Of a DNA stretch of 33,208 nucleotides, positions 2,993 through 33,103 are shown in pieces (position 1 is the stretch's first letter; each line of letters opens with the position of its first letter). Source of the DNA: Planctomycetota bacterium (GTDB taxonomy: Bacteria > Planctomycetota > Phycisphaerae > Sedimentisphaerales > Anaerobacaceae); NCBI GenBank assembly GCA_014384025.1, contig JACNGQ010000150.1:20202-53409 (forward strand). The letters run 5' to 3'. The position numbers and the translations under genes are program-made. Below the pieces are notes generated by a model. That model was not told the origin of the DNA and ran no database searches. It saw nothing but the letters and a program-made list of their open reading frames with translations.

Positions 2993-3365
2993 TGAAACAG
3001 GTAGGTTTGGAAAGTACTGTTATCATAATAAAAACCGTCATCATATTTGGTTCAAAATTTCATATCGAAAAACCGACCTGTCAGGATGAGGAATATTGAA
3101 GAGGCATTTTTACGGTTTGGCTGGGTACCTCAAATTAGCAGCTATGCTGGAAGTATGTAAATTCAAATGTGTAAACTCTGTTTTTTAACAGGTTGGACTG
3201 GCCGTTTTTAAGTAAACAACATTAACTCGAGGAGATTCGCATACGGAAGAGTGTTTAGTGTCCGGCGTTTATGTGGCAGTAAGCATTTATAAATTAAAAG
3301 TAAACCGAAGCGTATTTAAAAACGGTCTAATTTTGCGAATCCCAAATTAGAAAAGGAGAACAAAA
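2993..3365 (+). promoter_or_regulatory. Candidate structured 5' leader of pseudopilin-Hint gene 1
   Basis: There is no gene in 2857-3365. If the promoter at 2958-2986 is used, the mRNA has a leader of about 373 bases. It starts with an 83-base element with inverted-repeat ends (2998-3080), passes through blocks shared with the leader of gene 2 (GGTTTGGCT near 3114, CGTTTTTAAG near 3203, GTTTAGTG near 3251, TTAAAAACGGTC near 3316), and ends with a long-range stem. In that stem GATTCGCA (3234-3241) pairs with TGCGAATC (3334-3341), extendable by two G-C pairs past a bulged A. The Shine-Dalgarno AAGGAG (3353-3358) follows 10 bases later. The structure was paired by eye and is inferred; its conservation with the second leader is seen directly. 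Confidence 0.55.
2998..3080 (+). repeat. Leader repeat element, copy 1
   Basis: This 83-base element is bounded by CAGGTAGGTTT and AAACCGACCTG, which pair with a single A-G mismatch. The interior shares TATCATAAT, CCGTCATCATATT and TTTCATATCG with two more copies at 25390-25465 and 25216-25294. All three lie in the same orientation relative to a pseudopilin-Hint gene. Compared with the 25390 copy, the third base pair of the stem changes from C-G to T-A, a compensatory change that favours a paired structure. Confidence 0.7.
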
Positions 3366-4637
<1,272 letters not shown>

Positions 4638-23636: not shown

Positions 23637-24914
23637 TTACCAATCTCGCACAATCACACCGTCTTTGCCTACAAAATATTGCTCTGAGCCGGCTACCTTA
23701 AGATTATAGACCTTGCCGACGAAAGGTAATGGTCTTTTTACGACGCTCTTAATCGCAATTGCACCTTTCAACGATTTGAGCTTCATACCGCTTTCCAGGT
23801 TCGGGGCAGCGACCCATTTTCCGGAATCGAGCATGAAGCGGTGTGCATCAACGACGCTGATACGATTTCCGTTTTCGAGCGTTATATCGCGACATACGAA
23901 TGAACCATGGTGCTCTTCGAGTTTTTCGATATGCCTGACTGTTGAGAGGCAGCCGACTGTCCTGCCTACGATAACTTTCGAGATTTGAACGAGTTCCCCG
24001 TTTATCCATACGGGTGTATCAGCAGGGAAACACCTGCCTTTTCCACCTTCACCATCGTGTACGAGGAACGAATCCAGCCTGTCAGTCGGCTCACTGACAT
24101 TAGCCCGTGGGTAGCCTCCACGCCGGATATCTCCGCCGTCCCAGTAAGTGTAAATGTTATCATCGTTGATGGCGCAGAATGGTTGTTTTTCGAAGTTCAC
24201 GTGGCTGTCCATGAACAAGACGTTTTGTCCATCTTCCTGGTGAGCAATGGCATTTCCGACATTGGTATATTCTTTGCCGCCATCAGGATTGTATGAAGTC
24301 AGCAGGTCTTGAGTTTTGGCTTCTGCCGCCGGGGACTTCATCCATGGATTCCTGTCCGCTGCTACTGCCATACCTGGTTCGCTTGATGTAGTCAGAGCGT
24401 ACAGGCCGTAAGGCAAATGGTAGGAGTAGCTGCAATGGTTTATTGACTCGGGGCCGAAGTCCCAGAGGTCGATAAGATCCAAGCCGGCCGCAGCGGGGTA
24501 ATCGCTCTGCTTGAATTCCGTTGTCCCGGAATCACCCTTGCAGATGAATGACTTGGGCGTTACCTCGGCGTACTTGACCAGAAGATAAAAACTGGACGTA
24601 ATAGTGGCCTGACCGCCGCTGCCGTTGGCGCCTAATCCGTAAGCGGCAAAGCGGTTGTCTTGCATCCAGCCATTAGCACCACCTAATGTACCGCCCCACT
24701 TGCTGTTTCTGCCGCCGGCACGCGGAAACTCATCCTCGTAATCGTTGGCGTAGATAAGCATTGCCTTGCCGATGCCGGACAGGTTCGTCCCGCAGACCAT
24801 TCGGAAGGCAATCTGCCTGACCCTCGACAATGCGGGCATTAAGATGCCCATCAACAGAGCTATGATCGCAATTACGACCAGAAGCTCAACTAATGTAAAA
24901 CCTTTGCGTTTCAT
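23637..24914 (-). CDS. Type IV pseudopilin with C-terminal Hint (Hedgehog/intein-like) domain, paralogue 2
   Basis: This is the 425-residue paralogue of the gene at 3366, in opposite orientation. It has the same prepilin signal (MKRKG|FTLVELLVVIAII), the same H-X9-DG-type pseudopilin body and a Hint domain from Cys295 to the end (131 residues). Hint landmarks are CFPADTPVWING, VVDAHRFML, SGKWVAAPNLESGM, VYNLKVAGSEQYFVGKDG and the ending VIVRDW. Differences from copy 1 are informative: the poly-proline linker is missing (EGGKGR-C), four residues are added after the first Hint strands, and the residue before Cys is Arg rather than Gly. The first Cys, the block-B His and the RD-aromatic end are kept, so the domain appears to be under selection. 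AAAGGAG precedes the ATG. A leader of about 550 bases lies upstream. Confidence 0.9.
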   Translation of the reverse strand: MKRKGFTLVELLVVIAIIALLMGILMPALSRVRQIAFRMVCGTNLSGIGKAMLIYANDYEDEFPRAGGRNSKWGGTLGGANGWMQDNRFAAYGLGANGSGGQATITSSFYLLVKYAEVTPKSFICKGDSGTTEFKQSDYPAAAGLDLIDLWDFGPESINHCSYSYHLPYGLYALTTSSEPGMAVAADRNPWMKSPAAEAKTQDLLTSYNPDGGKEYTNVGNAIAHQEDGQNVLFMDSHVNFEKQPFCAINDDNIYTYWDGGDIRRGGYPRANVSEPTDRLDSFLVHDGEGGKGRCFPADTPVWINGELVQISKVIVGRTVGCLSTVRHIEKLEEHHGSFVCRDITLENGNRISVVDAHRFMLDSGKWVAAPNLESGMKLKSLKGAIAIKSVVKRPLPFVGKVYNLKVAGSEQYFVGKDGVIVRDW

Positions 24915-25215
24915 TTTTTTTCTCCTTTAATTTTTCGGAGATTCGCGCGACCGACCGTTCTTAAGCACATTTTGATAATCTCTTTAATAACAATAAGTAC
25001 AATTAATTACCGGGCTCGTATTATGACAGTTCCTGTCAAAGTGTATCACACAGCACTAAACAACGTTTTTTGCGAATCTCCATTGTTCTGTTTTTTCGCT
25101 CAAAAACGATCGGTTCAAAACGAATTTATAAATTTGCCGGTAAGTTCCGCGCAGGCCAACCGCTGCACGTTCAAGGCTGCTCTTAGTTCAGTCGTGTAAG
25201 TGAGTTTCTCTGGAA

Positions 25216-25294
25216 GGCAGATTCGAGAGGTATGAAATAACAAGGCGAATATAATGACGACCTAAATTATAATAAGTATTTCAAACCTGTCTGC
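25216..25294 (-). repeat. Leader repeat element, copy 3
   Basis: Read on the minus strand, this 79-base element begins GCAGACAGGTTTGAAAT and ends CGAATCTGCC, so its ends pair imperfectly. It shares TATAATTT, GTCGTCATTATATTCGCCTT and TTATTTCATA with the copy at 25390-25465. A TATGAA box sits just upstream of it, so it may have its own promoter, as the other copies do. Confidence 0.7.
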
Positions 25295-25389
25295 TGAATC
25301 CTGTTTTTCATATCGGCGCAAAAACTGCGCGCAAAACTTTTCTCCTTTGAAAAACAAAAGCCAAACTGCGAAAGAACCTTTCTTCGAAT

Positions 25390-25465
25390 GGCAGGTTCAA
25401 GATATGAAAATAAGAAGGCGAATATGATAACGGCTAAAATTATAAAATAATTTCAAACCTGCCTG
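25390..25465 (-). repeat. Leader repeat element, copy 2
   Basis: Read on the minus strand, the element runs from CAGGCAGGTTTGA to TTGAACCTGCC. Its ends form an 11-bp stem with two wobble pairs, and AAATTAT-TTT-ATAATTT forms an inner hairpin. It starts about 5 bases after the predicted transcription start, the same placement as in leader 1. The gap to copy 3 is about 95 bases. Confidence 0.72.
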
Positions 25466-25555
25466 TCTCTATTTATTTATACGCCAAAGCAATTTATTTG
25501 TTTTTTAATTTCGACAAATTTCTTCTGTTTTCTGGAAAATTTATTTTTGAGACTG

Positions 25556-26995
25556 CTATATTCTTCCGGGCTCTCTTCTGCTGCTGCCTGCCATTTTTTT
25601 AGAAGAATCGCCCAGCTCCTGGCGCATTTTCTCAACAAGACCCAACAACCGTTCGACTACATCCGGGTATTGTGCAGAGACATCGTTTTGCTCGCCAATA
25701 TCATTTTCAAGGTCAAATAACGACTGATCGATTTTGCCCTGTTCATACTTAGCCGGCTGGCCGTCCGTGCCACCCTCGCGTCCGGCCAATGTACGGTAAG
25801 CATGCGGCAGGTGCAGTTTCCATTTTCCGCTACGGACCGCTTCGAGAGCATAGCCGCTATAATAAAAGAACGCTTCGTGTGGACTCTTTGCTCCGGGTCT
25901 GCCAGAAATCAAAGGCCAGATGTCCCTGCCGTCGATAGTATGAGCAGGCAATGCCGCACCTGTGAGTTTCGCAACCGTGGGCAGGATGTCCATCGTCGAA
26001 GCCGGCTCTTTGCAGACAGTGCCTGCTGGTATCCGGCCCGGCCAGCGCATAATGGTTGACTCTCTCTGGCCGCCATCGAATGTTGTGCCCTTGCCCTCAC
26101 GCAGAGGTTTGGCCGAACCGGCATGGTCGCCGTAGCTCAGCCACGGCCCGTTATCTGAGCTGAATATCACCAAAGTCTTTTTATCGATACCTAATCTTTT
26201 AAGTGTTGAGAGTATCTGTCCGGCCGACCAGTCGATTTCCATCATGACGTCACCATACAGACCCTGTTCGGATTTGCCTTTGAATTTGTCGGAGACAAAT
26301 AAGGGCACATGCGCCATCGAATGAGGAAGATACAGGAAGAAAGGCTTGTCCTTGTTCTTCTCAATGAACCGAACAGACCGCTCGGTGTACCATGTAGTAA
26401 GCTGCGTCTGGTTGGGATTATACTCGATGACTCTTTCGCCTTCGATAAGCGGCAAGTCGGGGTATCTATCGCTGGTCGGATGTTTCGGCCACATATCGTT
26501 CGAGTAAGGCAGGCCGAAGTAATCGTCGAAACCGTGCCGCATCGGCAGGAATTTGGGATGATGGCCAAGGTGCCATTTGCCGTAGCAGGCTGTAGCATAA
26601 CCGAGGGGTTTTAGAACCTCCGCGATAGTCTGTTCGCCGGAGCTTATACCAACTTTCGCGCTCGGACCGATTACATTGGGCAGGCTCACTCTCTGCGGAT
26701 AACAGCCGGTCATCAAAGCGGCCCGCGAAGGAGTACACGACGGCGCAGCAGCGTAGAAGTCTGTGAACTTCACACCTTCAGCCGCCATCCGGTCGAGATG
26801 GGGAGTTTTATATCCTTTGGCCCCGAAAACACCGACGTCTGCGTAACCAACATCATCACAGAATATGATAATAACGTTCGGCTGGTCTATGCCCGAAGCC
26901 TGCGTTAAAGAACTTTCACAGCCGTTCAGCGCAAGCGCCGCCGCTGTGAGGCCTGCTGTCTTTAAGAAATCTCGTCTGTTCAAATTATTGCTCAT
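25556..26995 (-). CDS. Tat-exported sulfatase 5 of the operon
   Basis: This sulfatase of the alkaline phosphatase superfamily hydrolyses sulfate esters, probably on a polysaccharide. The 479-residue protein opens with a twin-arginine signal NRRDFLK, a hydrophobic stretch and LNGC (Cys26), so it is a predicted Tat lipoprotein. [13 protein letters not shown] supplies the metal-binding Asp pair (47-48). [12 protein letters not shown] carries Cys87, the residue converted to formylglycine in the C-x-P-S-R motif. [12 protein letters not shown] and FSSDNGPW complete the active site. It resembles the first gene of the operon more than the others. The substrate cannot be read. It is the last of five genes, 34 bases after its neighbour, with AGGAG ahead of the ATG. 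Confidence 0.93.
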
Positions 26996-27029
26996 TGAAA
27001 AATCTCCTGTTATTCATTTTGTCTTTATA

Positions 27030-28601
27030 CTAATATCTACTATGGCCTTGTTGTTTATATTTTTCAAGCAGCTTCATAAGGCGCTCGGTTATTTCAGGGT
27101 ACTTGCCCCACAGGTCATTTTGTTCATAAGGGTCATCGCGCAGGTCATAAAGCTGCCCTGGAGTTCCGGATTCCGGTTTTTTTCCGCTTGGACGAACCCA
27201 GCCGCCGGACGTTTTTGTATCAAGTATCAACTTCCACTTACCCTGTCGTATAGAGAACACTCCAAACACAGAATGATGAACGATAGCAGGGCGAATCGGT
27301 TCATCAAGTTCGGTGCCTAAAAGAGCAGGAAGGATATTAAAGCTGTCCGGCCCGGCACCATCAGGCAGCTCGGCCTCCACAATAGCTGCGCTTGTTGCGA
27401 TCAGGTCGATCAGGCAGATCACTTCATTACTGGTACTGCCCGGTTTAATCTTTCCGGGCCAGCGGGCAAGGAAAGGAATACGATGGCCGCCTTCCCAGAT
27501 ATGCGATTTAGAGCCGCGTAACTTACCAGACGATTTATGATCATCTTGGCCGTGCCGGGGACCGTTGTCGCTTGTAACAATTAACAGTGTATTTTCCGTC
27601 AACTCCAGACGGTCGAGCGCATCAAGAATTTGACCCACACACCAGTCGGTCCATACAACCATATCGCCGCGTGCACCGTCCCCGCTGCGCCCTTTAACAA
27701 AATCCGGCGGCAGCCACGGAGCATGCGGCGAAGAAAGTGGTAGATATAAAAAGAACAGCGTGGAGGAATGTTTTTTACAATTTTTTTCCATAAATTCGAT
27801 GGCTTTGCCGGTAAATACCGTATCAACCTCGGTGACATCAAAACCATCCGCCACCCAGCCCGGACGGGGACGGTAGTCGGCATCGACACTTTTGTCTATC
27901 GGCATCATCTTGTTCGGTATCCCGACTGTATTTCTGTTCCGGATATAGCAAAACGGGCCGTCAATCGTCGAACAGGCCGCTGTAAAATATGCGTAATCAA
28001 AACCCAAATCCACGGGACCACCACTGACAGGCTTTGTGAAATCTACATTCATTCCCTTCTTAGGGTCTCCATCCTGCCACGAGCCATTAAAATATTTGCG
28101 CCCGTCTTTGGCATTACCCATGTAGCCGTTGTGTCGTGTCCAGCCTACTCCCAGATGCCATTTGCCGATACAGGCCGTTCTGTAACCTTGTTTTTGCAGG
28201 AATGAAGCAACCGTGGTTCGGCTCGGTTCTATCAGCGGATTGGTATAACCGCCAACAACGCCGCTTTTCAGCCAGGTCCTCCAACAGTATCTGCCTGTCA
28301 ACACACCGTAACGAGTGGGAGTGCAAACCGCCGACGGCGAATGGGCGTCCGTAAAGCGGACACCCTGTTTTGCTAACCTGTCAATATTCGGTGTGGGAAT
28401 CTTCGAGTCAACATTGTAGCACCCGACATCACCGTAACCCATATCATCGGCCATAACAAAGACAATGTTCGGATGCCTGGGAGTTTTGTAATTAACTCGG
28501 CTTGCAGCGCGAACACATCCCGGTATTGTTAATGCTGCCGCTCCAAAGCTCAGTGTCTTTAGGAAGTCACGTCGATTAACATTTGTTTTCTCAATGCTCA
28601 T
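27030..28601 (-). CDS. Tat-exported sulfatase 4 of the operon
   Basis: This 523-residue sulfatase starts at the ATG at 28601; a TTG one codon earlier is the only upstream alternative. Tat signal [21 protein letters not shown] gives a predicted lipid anchor at Cys29. VMADDMGYGDVG holds the metal-binding Asp pair. AVCTPTRYGVLTGRY has the formylglycine Cys93 in a C-x-P-T-R motif, and CIGKWHLGVGW and VTSDNGPRHGQDDH follow. The long segment with FDYAYFTAACSTIDGPF is a substrate-pocket insertion not found in the shorter members of the operon. The first residues of the signal ([16 protein letters not shown]) are the same as in sulfatase 2, which suggests duplication or signal exchange. The start is 7 bases after the stop of sulfatase 3, so translation is probably coupled. 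Confidence 0.93.
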   Translation of the reverse strand: MSIEKTNVNRRDFLKTLSFGAAALTIPGCVRAASRVNYKTPRHPNIVFVMADDMGYGDVGCYNVDSKIPTPNIDRLAKQGVRFTDAHSPSAVCTPTRYGVLTGRYCWRTWLKSGVVGGYTNPLIEPSRTTVASFLQKQGYRTACIGKWHLGVGWTRHNGYMGNAKDGRKYFNGSWQDGDPKKGMNVDFTKPVSGGPVDLGFDYAYFTAACSTIDGPFCYIRNRNTVGIPNKMMPIDKSVDADYRPRPGWVADGFDVTEVDTVFTGKAIEFMEKNCKKHSSTLFFLYLPLSSPHAPWLPPDFVKGRSGDGARGDMVVWTDWCVGQILDALDRLELTENTLLIVTSDNGPRHGQDDHKSSGKLRGSKSHIWEGGHRIPFLARWPGKIKPGSTSNEVICLIDLIATSAAIVEAELPDGAGPDSFNILPALLGTELDEPIRPAIVHHSVFGVFSIRQGKWKLILDTKTSGGWVRPSGKKPESGTPGQLYDLRDDPYEQNDLWGKYPEITERLMKLLEKYKQQGHSRY

Positions 28602-28608
28602 CAACTTT

Positions 28609-30321
28609 TCACTTGTTTTTTGACGACTTTTTTACGGGCCAAGGTTGAACAGCACATCTGGCGGCCCAGTTTTCATACATCGCCTTCAACTGTTCAAATG
28701 TCCGTGTATATTTTTGTGACAGGTCATTCAACTCGGTACGGTCGGCCTCAAGGTCATACAGCTCCCATTTGCCGGGATGTTTGGAGACCAGCTTCCACTT
28801 GCCTTTGCGGACGGCCCGGTTGCCCTCATGCTCCCAGTAAATTGCTTCGCGCTCAATGGGCTTATTGTCAAAGGCCGGAACCAAACTCCTGCCTTCCATC
28901 GGTATTATCCTGTTGCCCTTGTATTCGGAAGGATAGCTTGCTCCGGCAATATCAACACATGTGGCCATAATATCGATAAGATGTCCGGGCTGATGACGCA
29001 GTTTGCCCCGAGTCTTAATATGCTCGGGCCAGTGAGCAATCAGCGGCGTCGATATACCACCCTCATGCACCCAGTGCTTGTAAAGGCGGAAGGGCGTGTT
29101 GCTGGCATTGGCCCAGGCTTTGCCGTAGGCAATGTAGGAATCAGCTGGGCCCGGTATCACACCGTAACCGGTGCGCACGGGGCGCCCGTCACGCGTAACC
29201 TTCGGCTGCATATCAAGCTGCAGCTCATTTTTGTCCATAGGTTTCAATGGGATTCTTTTAGACGGGTCCGGTTTGACCTCGCCGCGGTTTCCGTATTCTT
29301 CGGCACAGCCGCCGTTGTCTGCCAAAAAGAAAACGAGCGTGTTCTCGAAGTCGTCCTTCCTCTTTAACTCCGAAACGATACGTCCGACACCCTGGTCAAG
29401 GCAATCGACCATCGCAGCATATACTTCCATACGACGCTGGAACCACTCTTTATTCTCAACCTCCTCCCAAGGTGGTACGTTTGTGTCGCGCGAGGTAATC
29501 TTCCAATCGCTCTTTACTATTCCCATTTTTATCATGCGCTTGTGTCGCTGGGCTCGAAGCGTATCCCAGCCCTGCGCATAGCGGCCCTTGTATTTGGCGA
29601 TGTCCTGCGGCAGCGCATGCATTGGCCAGTGCGGAGCAGTGAAAGGAACATACAGGAAGAACGGTTTATCCGTACTGTGCTCACGAATGAATTTGACGGC
29701 GTTATCAGCGATGGCATTCGTGTAATAAAAGTCTTCACTTTCAGGAGAGATCTGTGTATTGTCGCGGGTCAGCGAGCACGGATCGTAGAAACTGCCTGCG
29801 CCGTGAATGGTTCCGAAGAAGCGGTCGAATCCGCGCTGGCGAGGCCAGTTATGTTTCGGGCCTTCCGGCCCCCGGTACCTGGTGACGTGCCACTTGCCGG
29901 ACATATAAGTACTGTATCCGGCCTGCTTGAGCACCTCAGCAATGGTTACGCAGCGGTTGCTGAGGTCGCCGCGATAACTTTCATAACCTTTATCCTCCAT
30001 CATATGCCCGACGCCCGCCTGGTGCTGGTAAAGTCCCGTCATCAGCGAGGCCCTGGTCGGACAGCAGCGAGCCGTATTGTAGAACTGTGTGAAACGCACA
30101 CCACCTGCGGCAAGCTTGTTCAGATTAGGTGTATTGATTTCTCCGCCGTAACAACCTATGTCCGAATATCCCATATCATCGGCCATAATCAGAACAATGT
30201 TCGGGCGCTTTCGTGCAGCCGCAGCTAATCCGGAAGCACCACCGCACACTGGCATCACAAGCGAGGCCACTCCAAGACCCATAATTTTCAAAAAGTCACG
30301 GCGTTTGTATTGTTCATTCAT
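28609..30321 (-). CDS. Tat-exported arylsulfatase-type sulfatase 3 of the operon
   Basis: This is the largest of the five sulfatases (570 residues). The Tat signal is KRRDFLKIMGLGVASLVMPVC. The Cys at 26 is preceded by Val, not Gly, so lipidation is less certain than for its neighbours. IMADDMGYSDIGCYGGEI has the metal-binding Asp pair. TARCCPTRASLMTGLYQHQAGVGHM is the bacterial arylsulfatase (AtsA-like) form, with Cys86 expected to become formylglycine and Cys87 in the variable position. MSGKWHVTR and FLADNGGCAEEYGNRGEV follow. The GHM segment and long C-terminal part are typical of arylsulfatases acting on small or exposed sulfate esters, although a polysaccharide substrate is equally possible. 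It lies 26 bases after sulfatase 2. Confidence 0.93.
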   Translation of the reverse strand: MNEQYKRRDFLKIMGLGVASLVMPVCGGASGLAAAARKRPNIVLIMADDMGYSDIGCYGGEINTPNLNKLAAGGVRFTQFYNTARCCPTRASLMTGLYQHQAGVGHMMEDKGYESYRGDLSNRCVTIAEVLKQAGYSTYMSGKWHVTRYRGPEGPKHNWPRQRGFDRFFGTIHGAGSFYDPCSLTRDNTQISPESEDFYYTNAIADNAVKFIREHSTDKPFFLYVPFTAPHWPMHALPQDIAKYKGRYAQGWDTLRAQRHKRMIKMGIVKSDWKITSRDTNVPPWEEVENKEWFQRRMEVYAAMVDCLDQGVGRIVSELKRKDDFENTLVFFLADNGGCAEEYGNRGEVKPDPSKRIPLKPMDKNELQLDMQPKVTRDGRPVRTGYGVIPGPADSYIAYGKAWANASNTPFRLYKHWVHEGGISTPLIAHWPEHIKTRGKLRHQPGHLIDIMATCVDIAGASYPSEYKGNRIIPMEGRSLVPAFDNKPIEREAIYWEHEGNRAVRKGKWKLVSKHPGKWELYDLEADRTELNDLSQKYTRTFEQLKAMYENWAARCAVQPWPVKKSSKNK

Positions 30322-30347
30322 CTTTATTTCCCCGTCAAAATATATTT

Positions 30348-31658
30348 TTATTCTATAGAATCCAGAACGTCCTGAAGCTGTTTTCTTGCCGATGCAGCTT
30401 CCGGGCCGCTCGGATTCGGATTCTGCTCCATTGTGTCAGTAGGCACATCAAAAAGATTGCCATTACCATAGAGCTTCCATCGCTTGTCGCGGACGAATCG
30501 CACGGCCTCTTTCCTGCCGAGCCATTTGGGGTCATAGTGACAAAAAATCCATTTCCTCGGTTTGCCTTGTTTACCTCGAAGCTGAGGCAGGAAGCTTTGG
30601 CCGTCTATTATCATACCCTCAGGAGGTGAAGCGCCGGTCATCTCCGCGAAGGTCGGAACAAAATCACTGAAATCCACAAGGTCGCCGCAAACTTTCCCTG
30701 CCGGCACTTCGCCCGGCCATCTCGCTATGAGGGGAACACGAGTACCCGCATCGGTTGTATTGCCCTTATCCCCTTTGATAATCTGACCGTCTGACATTTT
30801 CGATTTAATGTCCTTGTTTGTACCATTGTCACCAGTGAATATCACGAGAGTATTGTCGCTCAGGCCAAGCTCGTCCACCCTGGCAACGATACGACCGACG
30901 ATTTTGTCCATATAGGTCACCATATCGGCAAAGTATTTATTGTCGTTCTTTTGCTTCTCTTGTTCCCAGTCCTGGCTGTCTGGCGTTGGAACAAAGGGAT
31001 TGTGAACAATAGCCATCGGGAAGTACAGAAAGAAGGGTTTTGCCTTATGGCGCTCAATAAAATCAATCGCATAGTCGCAGAAGACGTCGGGGCCGTATCT
31101 GCCTTCAAGGCCCTCAAGATTTCTGCCGTTTTGCACGACAACAGGGTCTTTGTAGCGCGAGCCTCTCTCCTTTACCTGCCAGAGACAATGTTCGTCGAAG
31201 CCGGCCTGCGCCGGCATGCTGCCTGCACCGCGAACCTCGGCGCTTTGGTTAACGCTGCCGTATAACTGCCACTTACCCACTACACAGGTGGCATAACCAC
31301 ACCCCTGCAGCAAATGCCCGAAGGTTTTCTGCTTCGGGTCGAGGACGCCAAAATTTGTGTAGTTGCGGAAGTTATACTGGCCGGTCATAATTTTGACTCG
31401 CGACGGCGTACAGAGCGGCTGCGAATAGCAGTGTTCGAACCGCATACCCGCTGCAGCCATACCATCGAGAACAGGCGTCTTATACGATGCGCTGCCGTAA
31501 CAGCCGAAACACTCGTAGCCGATGTCGTCGGCCATAATCAAAATTATATTGTGTCTTTTGCTTTTGCCGGGAGAAAAACCGGAAGCACCGCTGCACCCCT
31601 GTATCACCAACGCCGCTGCACCAAAGCTTAGTGTCTTAAGAAAATCCCGTCGGTTCAT
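30348..31658 (-). CDS. Tat-exported sulfatase 2 of the operon, with GKWQ motif
   Basis: This is the shortest sulfatase here (436 residues). It has a Tat signal [22 protein letters not shown] with lipobox Cys22, IMADDIGYECFG (Asp44-Asp45) and LCTPSRVKIMTGQ with the formylglycine Cys83. The motif that is GKWH in most family members reads GKWQ here (Lys129, Gln131), replacing a His that contacts the sulfate ester in characterised enzymes. FTGDNGTNKDI keeps the metal ligands. The substitution seems to define a subfamily rather than damage, because the rest of the site is intact. Neighbouring genes are 20 and 26 bases away. AAGGAAAG lies about 10 bases before the ATG. Confidence 0.92.
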   Translation of the reverse strand: MNRRDFLKTLSFGAAALVIQGCSGASGFSPGKSKRHNIILIMADDIGYECFGCYGSASYKTPVLDGMAAAGMRFEHCYSQPLCTPSRVKIMTGQYNFRNYTNFGVLDPKQKTFGHLLQGCGYATCVVGKWQLYGSVNQSAEVRGAGSMPAQAGFDEHCLWQVKERGSRYKDPVVVQNGRNLEGLEGRYGPDVFCDYAIDFIERHKAKPFFLYFPMAIVHNPFVPTPDSQDWEQEKQKNDNKYFADMVTYMDKIVGRIVARVDELGLSDNTLVIFTGDNGTNKDIKSKMSDGQIIKGDKGNTTDAGTRVPLIARWPGEVPAGKVCGDLVDFSDFVPTFAEMTGASPPEGMIIDGQSFLPQLRGKQGKPRKWIFCHYDPKWLGRKEAVRFVRDKRWKLYGNGNLFDVPTDTMEQNPNPSGPEAASARKQLQDVLDSIE

Positions 31659-31678
31659 AAATACTTCTTTCCTTTTAG

Positions 31679-33103
31679 TTACTTCTTCTCTATACGCTTT
31701 GCGAGCTGGTCTTCGCCGAGCTTTAAGCCTGCAAGATGCAGGGCCAACTCTTTGCGGATTTCAATTATAACTTCCGGATTGTCTTTGGATATATCATATT
31801 TTTCAGATGGATCATGTTCGAGATTATAAAGCAGCGGGGGATCGTGATACTCATCTTTCCCCTTACCATAAGCCAGCTTTGTTATGAAATGCGCCTTATA
31901 AGGGCCTTTGCGCGCCGCGTACAGTTTTGCGCCTCGATAATAGAACATATTTTTCCGGGGACTGGGTCCGGTCCCGAACAGAGCAGGTGACAGGTCCAGC
32001 CCGTCAACCACTCGGTCGGTCGGGACATTTGCCCCGGCCAATGTAAGGATAGTCGTATATATATCCATAGTCGAACCCATATCGTTCACAACGGCAGGTT
32101 TTATTTTGCCCGGCCACCACATAATACAGGGCTCACGCATACCGCCTTCGAAGGTACAGCCCTTGCCTTCTCTAAGCAGCCCCGCCGAGCCGCCGTGCTC
32201 ATTGAAGATAAGCCATGGGCCGTTGTCGGACGTAAAGACAACGAATGTATTTTCCGCCAGGCCCTCGCGGCGCAGCGTGCTTAGTATCTGCCCGACGCCA
32301 TAGTCAATTTCTTCAATTACATCGCCATAAAGACCTCGCAGGCTTTTGTCCCTGAACTTCTGCGAGACGAACAGCGGGACATGGGGCAGATTGTGAGCCA
32401 GATAAAGAAAGAAAGGCTTGTTTTTGCTTTTCCGTACAAACTTTACCGCCTCTTCTGTGTAGCGTTTGATAATTGTGTTCTGGTCGGCGGGACGCTCTAT
32501 GATTTCTTCGTCGCGCATAAGCGGGACATTAAAGTACTCGGTCTTCGGTTCAAGAAACGCCTGTCGTCCCTCTCCTCCGACGCGGTCCATATCGTTGCTG
32601 TACGGAATGCCAAAGTAGGAGTCGAAGCCGTTATTTGTCGGCAGATACTGCGGCAGATGCCCGAGGTGCCATTTACCGACACAGGCGGTCGCATAGCCTT
32701 CGTCCTTCAGGGCCTCCGCGATAGTAACTTCACTTTTCGGCAGACCGCCGGCCGAATCGGGGAACAGGACGCGCCGCTTATCGCTGCACATTCCGCTGCG
32801 AATCGGCAGTCTGCCTGTCAGCAGTGCCGCCCGGCTCGGTGTACAGACCGAAGCCCCGACATAGAAGTTCGTCCATTTCTGACCCTCGGCAGCCATCTTG
32901 TCCAGATTGGGAGTGCGAATCGTTGGGTGGCCATAGCATGCTAAATCACCATAGCCCATATCATCGCAAAATATGATAATGAAGTTTGGTTTTTTCTCGT
33001 TAGCCACGCCGGCATTAAAACTGGCGCAGCCGGGCAGGGTAAGTGAAACGGCCCCTGCGCTTAGAAATTTGATGAACTGTCGTCGATTAATTTGAGGTTT
33101 CAT
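31679..33103 (-). CDS. Tat-exported sulfatase 1, first gene of the operon
   Basis: This 474-residue sulfatase is first in the five-gene operon. The Tat signal NRRQFIKFLSAGAVSLTLPGC has lipobox Cys26. IIFCDDMGYGDLACYG has the Asp pair 47-48. [21 protein letters not shown] holds the formylglycine Cys87. CVGKWHLGHLPQYLPTNNGFDSYFGIPYSNDM and FTSDNGPWLIFNEHGGSAGLLREGKG match the arylsulfatase A/GALNS-like branch and closely parallel sulfatase 5, so those two are probably duplicates. AAGGAG lies 7 bases before the ATG and a good promoter is about 50 bases upstream. The exported, surface-anchored location fits removal of sulfate from polysaccharide before uptake. The exact substrate is unknown. Confidence 0.93.
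   Translation of the reverse strand: MKPQINRRQFIKFLSAGAVSLTLPGCASFNAGVANEKKPNFIIIFCDDMGYGDLACYGHPTIRTPNLDKMAAEGQKWTNFYVGASVCTPSRAALLTGRLPIRSGMCSDKRRVLFPDSAGGLPKSEVTIAEALKDEGYATACVGKWHLGHLPQYLPTNNGFDSYFGIPYSNDMDRVGGEGRQAFLEPKTEYFNVPLMRDEEIIERPADQNTIIKRYTEEAVKFVRKSKNKPFFLYLAHNLPHVPLFVSQKFRDKSLRGLYGDVIEEIDYGVGQILSTLRREGLAENTFVVFTSDNGPWLIFNEHGGSAGLLREGKGCTFEGGMREPCIMWWPGKIKPAVVNDMGSTMDIYTTILTLAGANVPTDRVVDGLDLSPALFGTGPSPRKNMFYYRGAKLYAARKGPYKAHFITKLAYGKGKDEYHDPPLLYNLEHDPSEKYDISKDNPEVIIEIRKELALHLAGLKLGEDQLAKRIEKK

Follow-up and report, generated by a model that had tools for sequence, protein, structure and literature searches.

Two gene leaders in a 33,208-nucleotide stretch of DNA from an uncultured planctomycete (the window) carry an RNA hairpin element that, as far as comparative sequence evidence can establish, is a real and previously undescribed family. 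The element consists of a 9- to 12-bp stem that closes a 50- to 60-nt loop with three conserved UYAUA blocks. Its covariation, position, orientation, specificity, and gene content make it very probable that the element is a cis-acting mRNA-leader RNA of an order-wide export regulon. The best explanation overall, to which we assign a probability of roughly 0.6, is a family of cis-RNA hairpins in exported-protein mRNAs, with reading by a trans-acting protein as its more tentative step. The element probably lets the cell control the whole set of exported-protein genes together.

Element copies in the window and in the genome

A sequence-only reading of the window had reported three copies of ~80 bases, and all three were recovered at those places with limits set by a covariance model, R1. 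The model was built from 31 aligned copies that included the window copies and their relatives, so the scores below are high by construction. The copies and the genes that follow them are as follows.

2997 to 3083, + strand: element copy 1, left leader (R1, 79 bits; orthologous copies in sister genomes)
25385 to 25466, - strand: element copy 2, right leader, promoter-proximal first copy (R1, 76.7 bits)
25211 to 25294, - strand: element copy 3, right leader, second copy (R1, 72.4 bits; tandem arrangement conserved in sister genomes)
3366 to 4637, + strand: pseudopilin-Hint gene P0001, left leader (Pfam N_methyl, E = 3.3e-8; PT-HINT, E = 2.5e-4, below the gathering cutoff)
23637 to 24914, - strand: pseudopilin-Hint gene P0002, right leader (Pfam N_methyl, E = 2.7e-8; PT-HINT, E = 5.4e-6, just below the gathering cutoff)

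Copy 3 lies ~173 nt downstream of copy 2 and has no promoter of its own upstream. In a BLASTN search of the whole genome, these two copies matched each other (81% identity; E = 7.6e-12), and nothing beyond them rose above noise. BLASTN misses copy 1, which has diverged too far, but sister genomes carry relatives of it in the corresponding leaders, and these identify copy 1 as the same element. The sequence blocks said to be common to the copies do exist, though they vary. Copy 2 alone has CCGTTATCATATTC exactly, where copy 1 reads CCGTCATCATATTT and copy 3 reads TCGTCATTATATTC; an exact TTTCATATC occurs in copies 1 and 2.

R1 matched the ~6.7-Mb genome (an assembly of 448 contigs, with the window at C292:20202-53409) exactly four times, at the three window copies and at C8:18209-18289 (E = 1e-4). 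A second covariance model returned the same four copies, its next match having an E value of 0.9. The fourth copy precedes an 803-aa secreted beta-helix-type protein with a terminal Hint domain. The genome-wide count proposed in the sequence-only reading thus gives four copies, all at the 5' ends of genes and every one in sense orientation to its gene, as had been claimed for the window; scattered copies unrelated to genes were not seen. That reading had also considered a miniature mobile repeat (REP/MITE-like), which would fit the inverted ends and the repeat copies in the window. This option is refuted, and we leave it next to no probability: four copies per 6.7 Mb all sit in sense orientation at gene starts, they hold orthologous positions across genera and families, and the element is absent from the paralogous non-pilin loci tested.

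Distribution across genomes

Relatives of the pseudopilin-Hint protein were present in 28 of 61 genomes searched. The DNA upstream of nearly all pilin-type relatives contained the element, either single or as a tandem pair, ~300 to 650 nt ahead of the start codon. Of the 89 genomes in the family, R1 found one to several copies in each of 74; weak matches came from a further three families within the order. The latter were independently confirmed by their gene context, as five of the six loci with a readable downstream gene precede pseudopilins. Across a phylum sample of 392 genomes, which included a few of the same order, R1 gave no match at an E value of ≤0.001 in the 391 others. An improved model, R2, gave 44 positives among 397 genomes of the class, all 44 within this same order of Planctomycetota; records of the relatives carry the names Planctomycetota, Phycisphaerae, and Sedimentisphaerales. 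The genomes are mostly incomplete MAGs, and filters were strict in searches covering more than 40 genomes; the copy numbers are therefore minimum values. Element positions are orthologous across many genera and across families.

A covarying stem around a conserved loop

To describe the anatomy of the element, we aligned 121 matches to R1. The stem, P1, has the consensus AGGYAGGTTT / AAACCTGCCT; in copy 1 it reads ACAGGT.GGTTT / AAACC.ACCTGT around an AU-rich loop. P1 is 87.9% paired, with double changes in 9 of 11 pairs. Its covariation score was 0.278, compared with 0.172 in shuffled alignments and 0.04 to 0.09 when the stem was slid along the alignment. None of 500 shuffles reached the score, a count that is not a probability because the aligned sequences are related. 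The covariation among copies that the sequence-only reading had suggested looking for is therefore present in the stem. So is the change from T-A to C-G that it had noted in the third stem pair, which turned out to be recurrent (C-G in 65, U-A in 22, and U-G in 25 among 119 sequences). The asymmetry between G-U and A-C cells in P1 was modest (108 versus 70), because two positions tolerate A-C. In a structure-free scan of all column pairs, two P1 pairs ranked first (z = 7.9), and no covarying helix appeared within the loop. RNAalifold, run on the first alignment, kept just six outer pairs. Inner hairpins around blocks 1 and 2, taken from single-sequence folds, showed no covariation, and an AAAG..CTTT hairpin spotted by eye after the element was unsupported by RNAalifold.

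The loop is rich in A and U and holds the blocks TTATYATAA, GYCATCATAW, and TTTCATAYC, each of which contains UYAUA. At least three TYATA motifs were present in 105 of 115 loops (mean, 3.07, versus 0.52 in shuffled loops). The spacing between blocks is variable, at 13 to 20 and 17 to 25 nt. At two loci (L064, 834 to 934, and L236, 382 to 489), small GC-rich hairpins are inserted between UYAUA blocks and the element is kept. The AU-rich blocks of the loop, being short, repeated, and single-stranded, could also serve as pairing sites for a trans-acting small RNA. Three repeated short A+U-rich sites make poor seeds, and we consider such a small RNA improbable.

Promoters and position in the leader

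Upstream of copy 1, a promoter scan returned the following.

2958 to 2986, + strand: left-leader promoter, TTGACA-17 nt-TACGAT with a TG extended -10 (predicted start, ~2993)

Promoters of this sigma-70 type (TTGACA/TATAAT) were found close upstream of 73 of 96 first copies, compared with 3.7 expected in shuffled sequence. The criterion was at least 9 of 12 matches, with the promoter ending 6 to 24 nt upstream of the element (most often 9 to 11 nt), and most of these promoters had the extended -10 TG. With transcript 5' ends deduced from the promoter matches, the stem starts ~3 to 12 nt after the predicted transcription start. In the right leader, a TATAAA box resembling a -10 is suitably placed but no -35 is recognizable; its orthologues in the genus likewise have just a -10-like box. 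The earlier statement that the first copy begins ~5 nt after the start in both leaders therefore holds for the left leader and is weaker for the right one. Second tandem copies lie ~125 to 175 nt further into the predicted transcript, and the same scan found a promoter in none of 21.

The position near the predicted start is what a 5' stabilizer would have, that is, a terminal stem that by itself shields abundant surface-protein mRNAs from 5'-end-dependent decay. The products are exported, and many are of structural type, which would also suit a stabilizer. This reading leaves unexplained both the sequence conservation of the three loop blocks and the internal second copies ~125 to 175 nt downstream, and we regard it as unlikely.

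A different consequence of the same position would be a DNA operator or an RNA polymerase pause site in the initially transcribed region. Elements lie just after the -10, and block 1 is often TATAAT-like; taken as a -10 box in its own right, block 1 fits just part of the copies, and block 3 (CATATC/CATACC) is unfit as one. The 21 second copies sit well inside the predicted transcript without a promoter, and this favors an RNA over an operator at the promoter. Moreover, the compensatory changes pass through U-G, and the orientation to the gene is never inverted. We rate an operator or pause site as very unlikely, slightly below the small RNA, even with a promoter-upstream motif common to 37 of 72 promoters on its side; the site for a DNA-binding protein that the sequence-only reading had offered as one option is unlikely on the same grounds. 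The motif, TTTGNCGAAATT, precedes the -35 box of these promoters by ~10 nt (expected number, 1.35; in the window at ~2940 to 2957, + strand) and is perhaps an activator site or UP element.

Genes downstream of the element

We read the genes downstream of 87 copies and counted each gene once. Genes were called simply from ATG to stop, and a product was taken as exported on the strength of its hydropathy and family. The distinct downstream genes encode 38 pseudopilins of the N_methyl type and 36 other proteins. A hydrophobic N-terminal segment is present in 33 of these 36, compared with 4 of 21 background window genes. Their families include right-handed beta-helix/choice-of-anchor Q, RCC1, alpha-2-macroglobulin, subtilase, VIT/VWA, GLUG, FG-GAP/DUF3160, and PEP-CTERM proteins, as well as transporter-like/spermine-synthase membrane proteins. 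Among the loci tested that carry a paralogous ectodomain gene with a non-pilin N terminus, none had an element match. The element therefore follows the leader and the export class, not the ectodomain or the Hint domain.

The sequence-only reading had tied the element to pseudopilin-Hint genes. The three window copies conform to this, but the gene downstream of the fourth copy is of the beta-helix-Hint type, and Hint is missing from most pseudopilins that have the element, so the association is not a general rule. A Hint-specific element was rejected: a simple C-terminal Hint pattern was found in 3 of 37 element-bearing pilins (a lower bound, as some loci are truncated), and many complete pilins and other proteins with the element have no Hint domain. 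In the present genome, all four copies do precede Hint genes, with the domain C-terminal in the two pseudopilins (3366 to 4637 and 23637 to 24914) and in the secreted beta-helix protein (C8:15555-15983). Elsewhere in the window, 25556 to 33103 on the - strand holds about five genes that share sulfatase-like repeated stretches (Pfam was applied to the first gene only).

A second RNA domain near the ribosome-binding site

An alignment (A5) of 56 pilin leaders, spanning PA through the ribosome-binding site, brought out a second domain that was absent from the sequence-only reading and is previously unreported. Two interleaved helices, PA (CCGACCGTTYTTRAG/CTTAAGAACGGTCGG) and PB (GGAGATTCGC/GCGAATCTCC), form a predicted pseudoknot that ends beside AAAGGAG. 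The same alignment places it in both window leaders.

3195 to 3357, + strand: left-leader pseudoknot, PA GGCCGTTTTTAA/TTAAAAACGGTC and PB GGAGATTCGC/GCGAATCCC, ending at the SD AAGGAG
24923 to 25116, - strand: right-leader pseudoknot, PA ACCGATCGTTTTTGAG/CTTAAGAACGGTCGG and PB GGAGATTCGC/GCGAATCTCC

Double changes occur in 22 of 26 pairs, none of 500 shuffles reached the covariation score, and slid controls fell far below it. The inner pairs include 119 G-U and 24 A-C cells, an excess which indicates that the leader works as a sense RNA. By a simple motif test, the pseudoknot is present in 32 of 38 pilin leaders and in none of 36 non-pilin leaders. It has no Rfam match. An exact DNA pattern for part of it found nothing in the present genome, the pattern being too strict even for the window leaders. 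As read from these alignments, the pseudoknot shows the pilin leader to be a functional RNA and, lying beside the ribosome site, it is a plausible output domain of pilin mRNAs. In one tandem-element leader (L104, 1501 to 2161), the pseudoknot is eroded in its 3' halves, and a gene for a transporter-like protein follows in place of a pseudopilin gene, which may reflect leader decay or capture.

Proposed mechanism and its rivals

The sequence-only reading had listed an RNA stability or sensor element among its options, and this one gained support from the covarying stem, the predicted position at the mRNA 5' end, the conserved loop, and the second structured domain of the leader. We propose that the stem near the predicted mRNA 5' end would hold open a loop presenting three UYAUA sites, that a trans-acting RNA-binding protein common to the regulon would bind these sites, and that the bound protein would set the stability or translation of the regulon mRNAs together. 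A second, tandem copy would make binding tighter or more cooperative, and in pilin leaders the SD-proximal pseudoknot is a likely second control point. A repeated-motif test for a leader bound by an RNA-binding protein found several UYAUA copies in a loop without a covarying helix. A multivalent RNA-binding protein is suggested by the three short, near-identical motifs, which are unpaired and loosely spaced; the variable spacing and the tolerated hairpin inserts are easier to reconcile with short sites bound independently than with a rigid pocket. Protein binding at the UYAUA sites is the likeliest mechanism, which we put forward tentatively and with a putative partner. The conserved loop sequence could equally be an aptamer.

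The main rival is a new riboswitch class, with P1 and the conserved loop forming an aptamer for a small molecule or ion, often in tandem, that tunes the export/surface regulon. The predicted 5'-terminal position, the strongly conserved unpaired loop nucleotides, the tandem copies, and the occurrence of one element before many functionally related genes would all be at home in a riboswitch, and the documented control of pilA1 and adhesins by c-di-GMP offers a direct functional analogue (PMC6200980). The pseudoknot near the SD could be a riboswitch platform, but in pilin leaders only; no conserved expression platform adjoins the element, and none shared among the non-pilin leaders was found. The loop also lacks a conserved helix, its motif spacing is loose, and no Rfam riboswitch matched, c-di-GMP classes included. 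These points leave a riboswitch somewhat unlikely. A terminator/antiterminator switch working through a complement to the 3' arm of P1 was rejected: downstream complements to that arm showed no excess (4.34 versus 4.23), and the two window leaders contain no intrinsic terminator.

Taken at its widest, the hairpin would define an order-wide posttranscriptional export regulon. The hairpin would tag pseudopilin, beta-helix, RCC1, macroglobulin-like, subtilase, and PEP-CTERM mRNAs for joint control by an RNA-binding protein or a ligand, with the pilin pseudoknot gating the ribosome-binding site; we see the odds for this full picture as about even. An undescribed cis-RNA family very probably links unrelated exported-protein genes of uncultured planctomycetes into one regulon, and in the literature searched we found no earlier description of RNA-level control of surface proteins for these planctomycetes. 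The element could serve as bait with which to find a new RNA-binding protein or a second messenger that acts as its ligand, and the covariance model is ready for annotating the regulon in metagenomes.

Comparison with known RNAs

Searches against Rfam (cmscan of the window, of both leaders at an E value of ≤1, and of 20 related loci) returned nothing for the element, whether from riboswitch classes, c-di-GMP included, or from other families, and no description of it was found in the literature, which was partially covered. A fluoride riboswitch (RF01734; 41.3 bits) is present at 1 to 53 of the window (- strand), cut by the window edge.

Among leaders read by RNA-binding proteins, CsrA/Rsm recognizes GGA sites and TRAP recognizes GAG/UAG repeats. 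The element resembles them in having a repeated short motif in a 5' leader and, as proposed, one factor for a gene set; it differs in that its motif is UYAUA rather than GGA or GAG/UAG, lies at the predicted transcript 5' end, and is closed by a stem. The ompA leader, a 5' stabilizing stem-loop, likewise has its stem where the mRNA of an envelope protein begins, the position predicted for the element; the element differs in a loop sequence conserved from genus to genus and in its occasional internal duplication. With REP/MITE repeats the element shares its small size and inverted ends, but it is low in copy number, in sense orientation, and at a fixed location beside promoters. Rhodopirellula-1, listed for Proteobacteria and Planctomycetes among the 104 candidates of PMC2864571, is also a candidate structured RNA in Planctomycetes; the text of that paper mentions neither pilin nor signal peptide.

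The closest functional parallel may be with the c-di-GMP riboswitches (classes I and II), which control pilin and adhesin regulons, as for pilA1 and adhesins in Clostridioides difficile (PMC6200980), and which, like the element, are known in tandem arrangements (PMC4759541). Unlike these riboswitches, the element has a single closing stem, a large loop, no covarying internal helices, and no Rfam match. Like those of C. difficile, it is a predicted 5'-untranslated-region RNA found before pilin genes and several genes for surface or secreted proteins.
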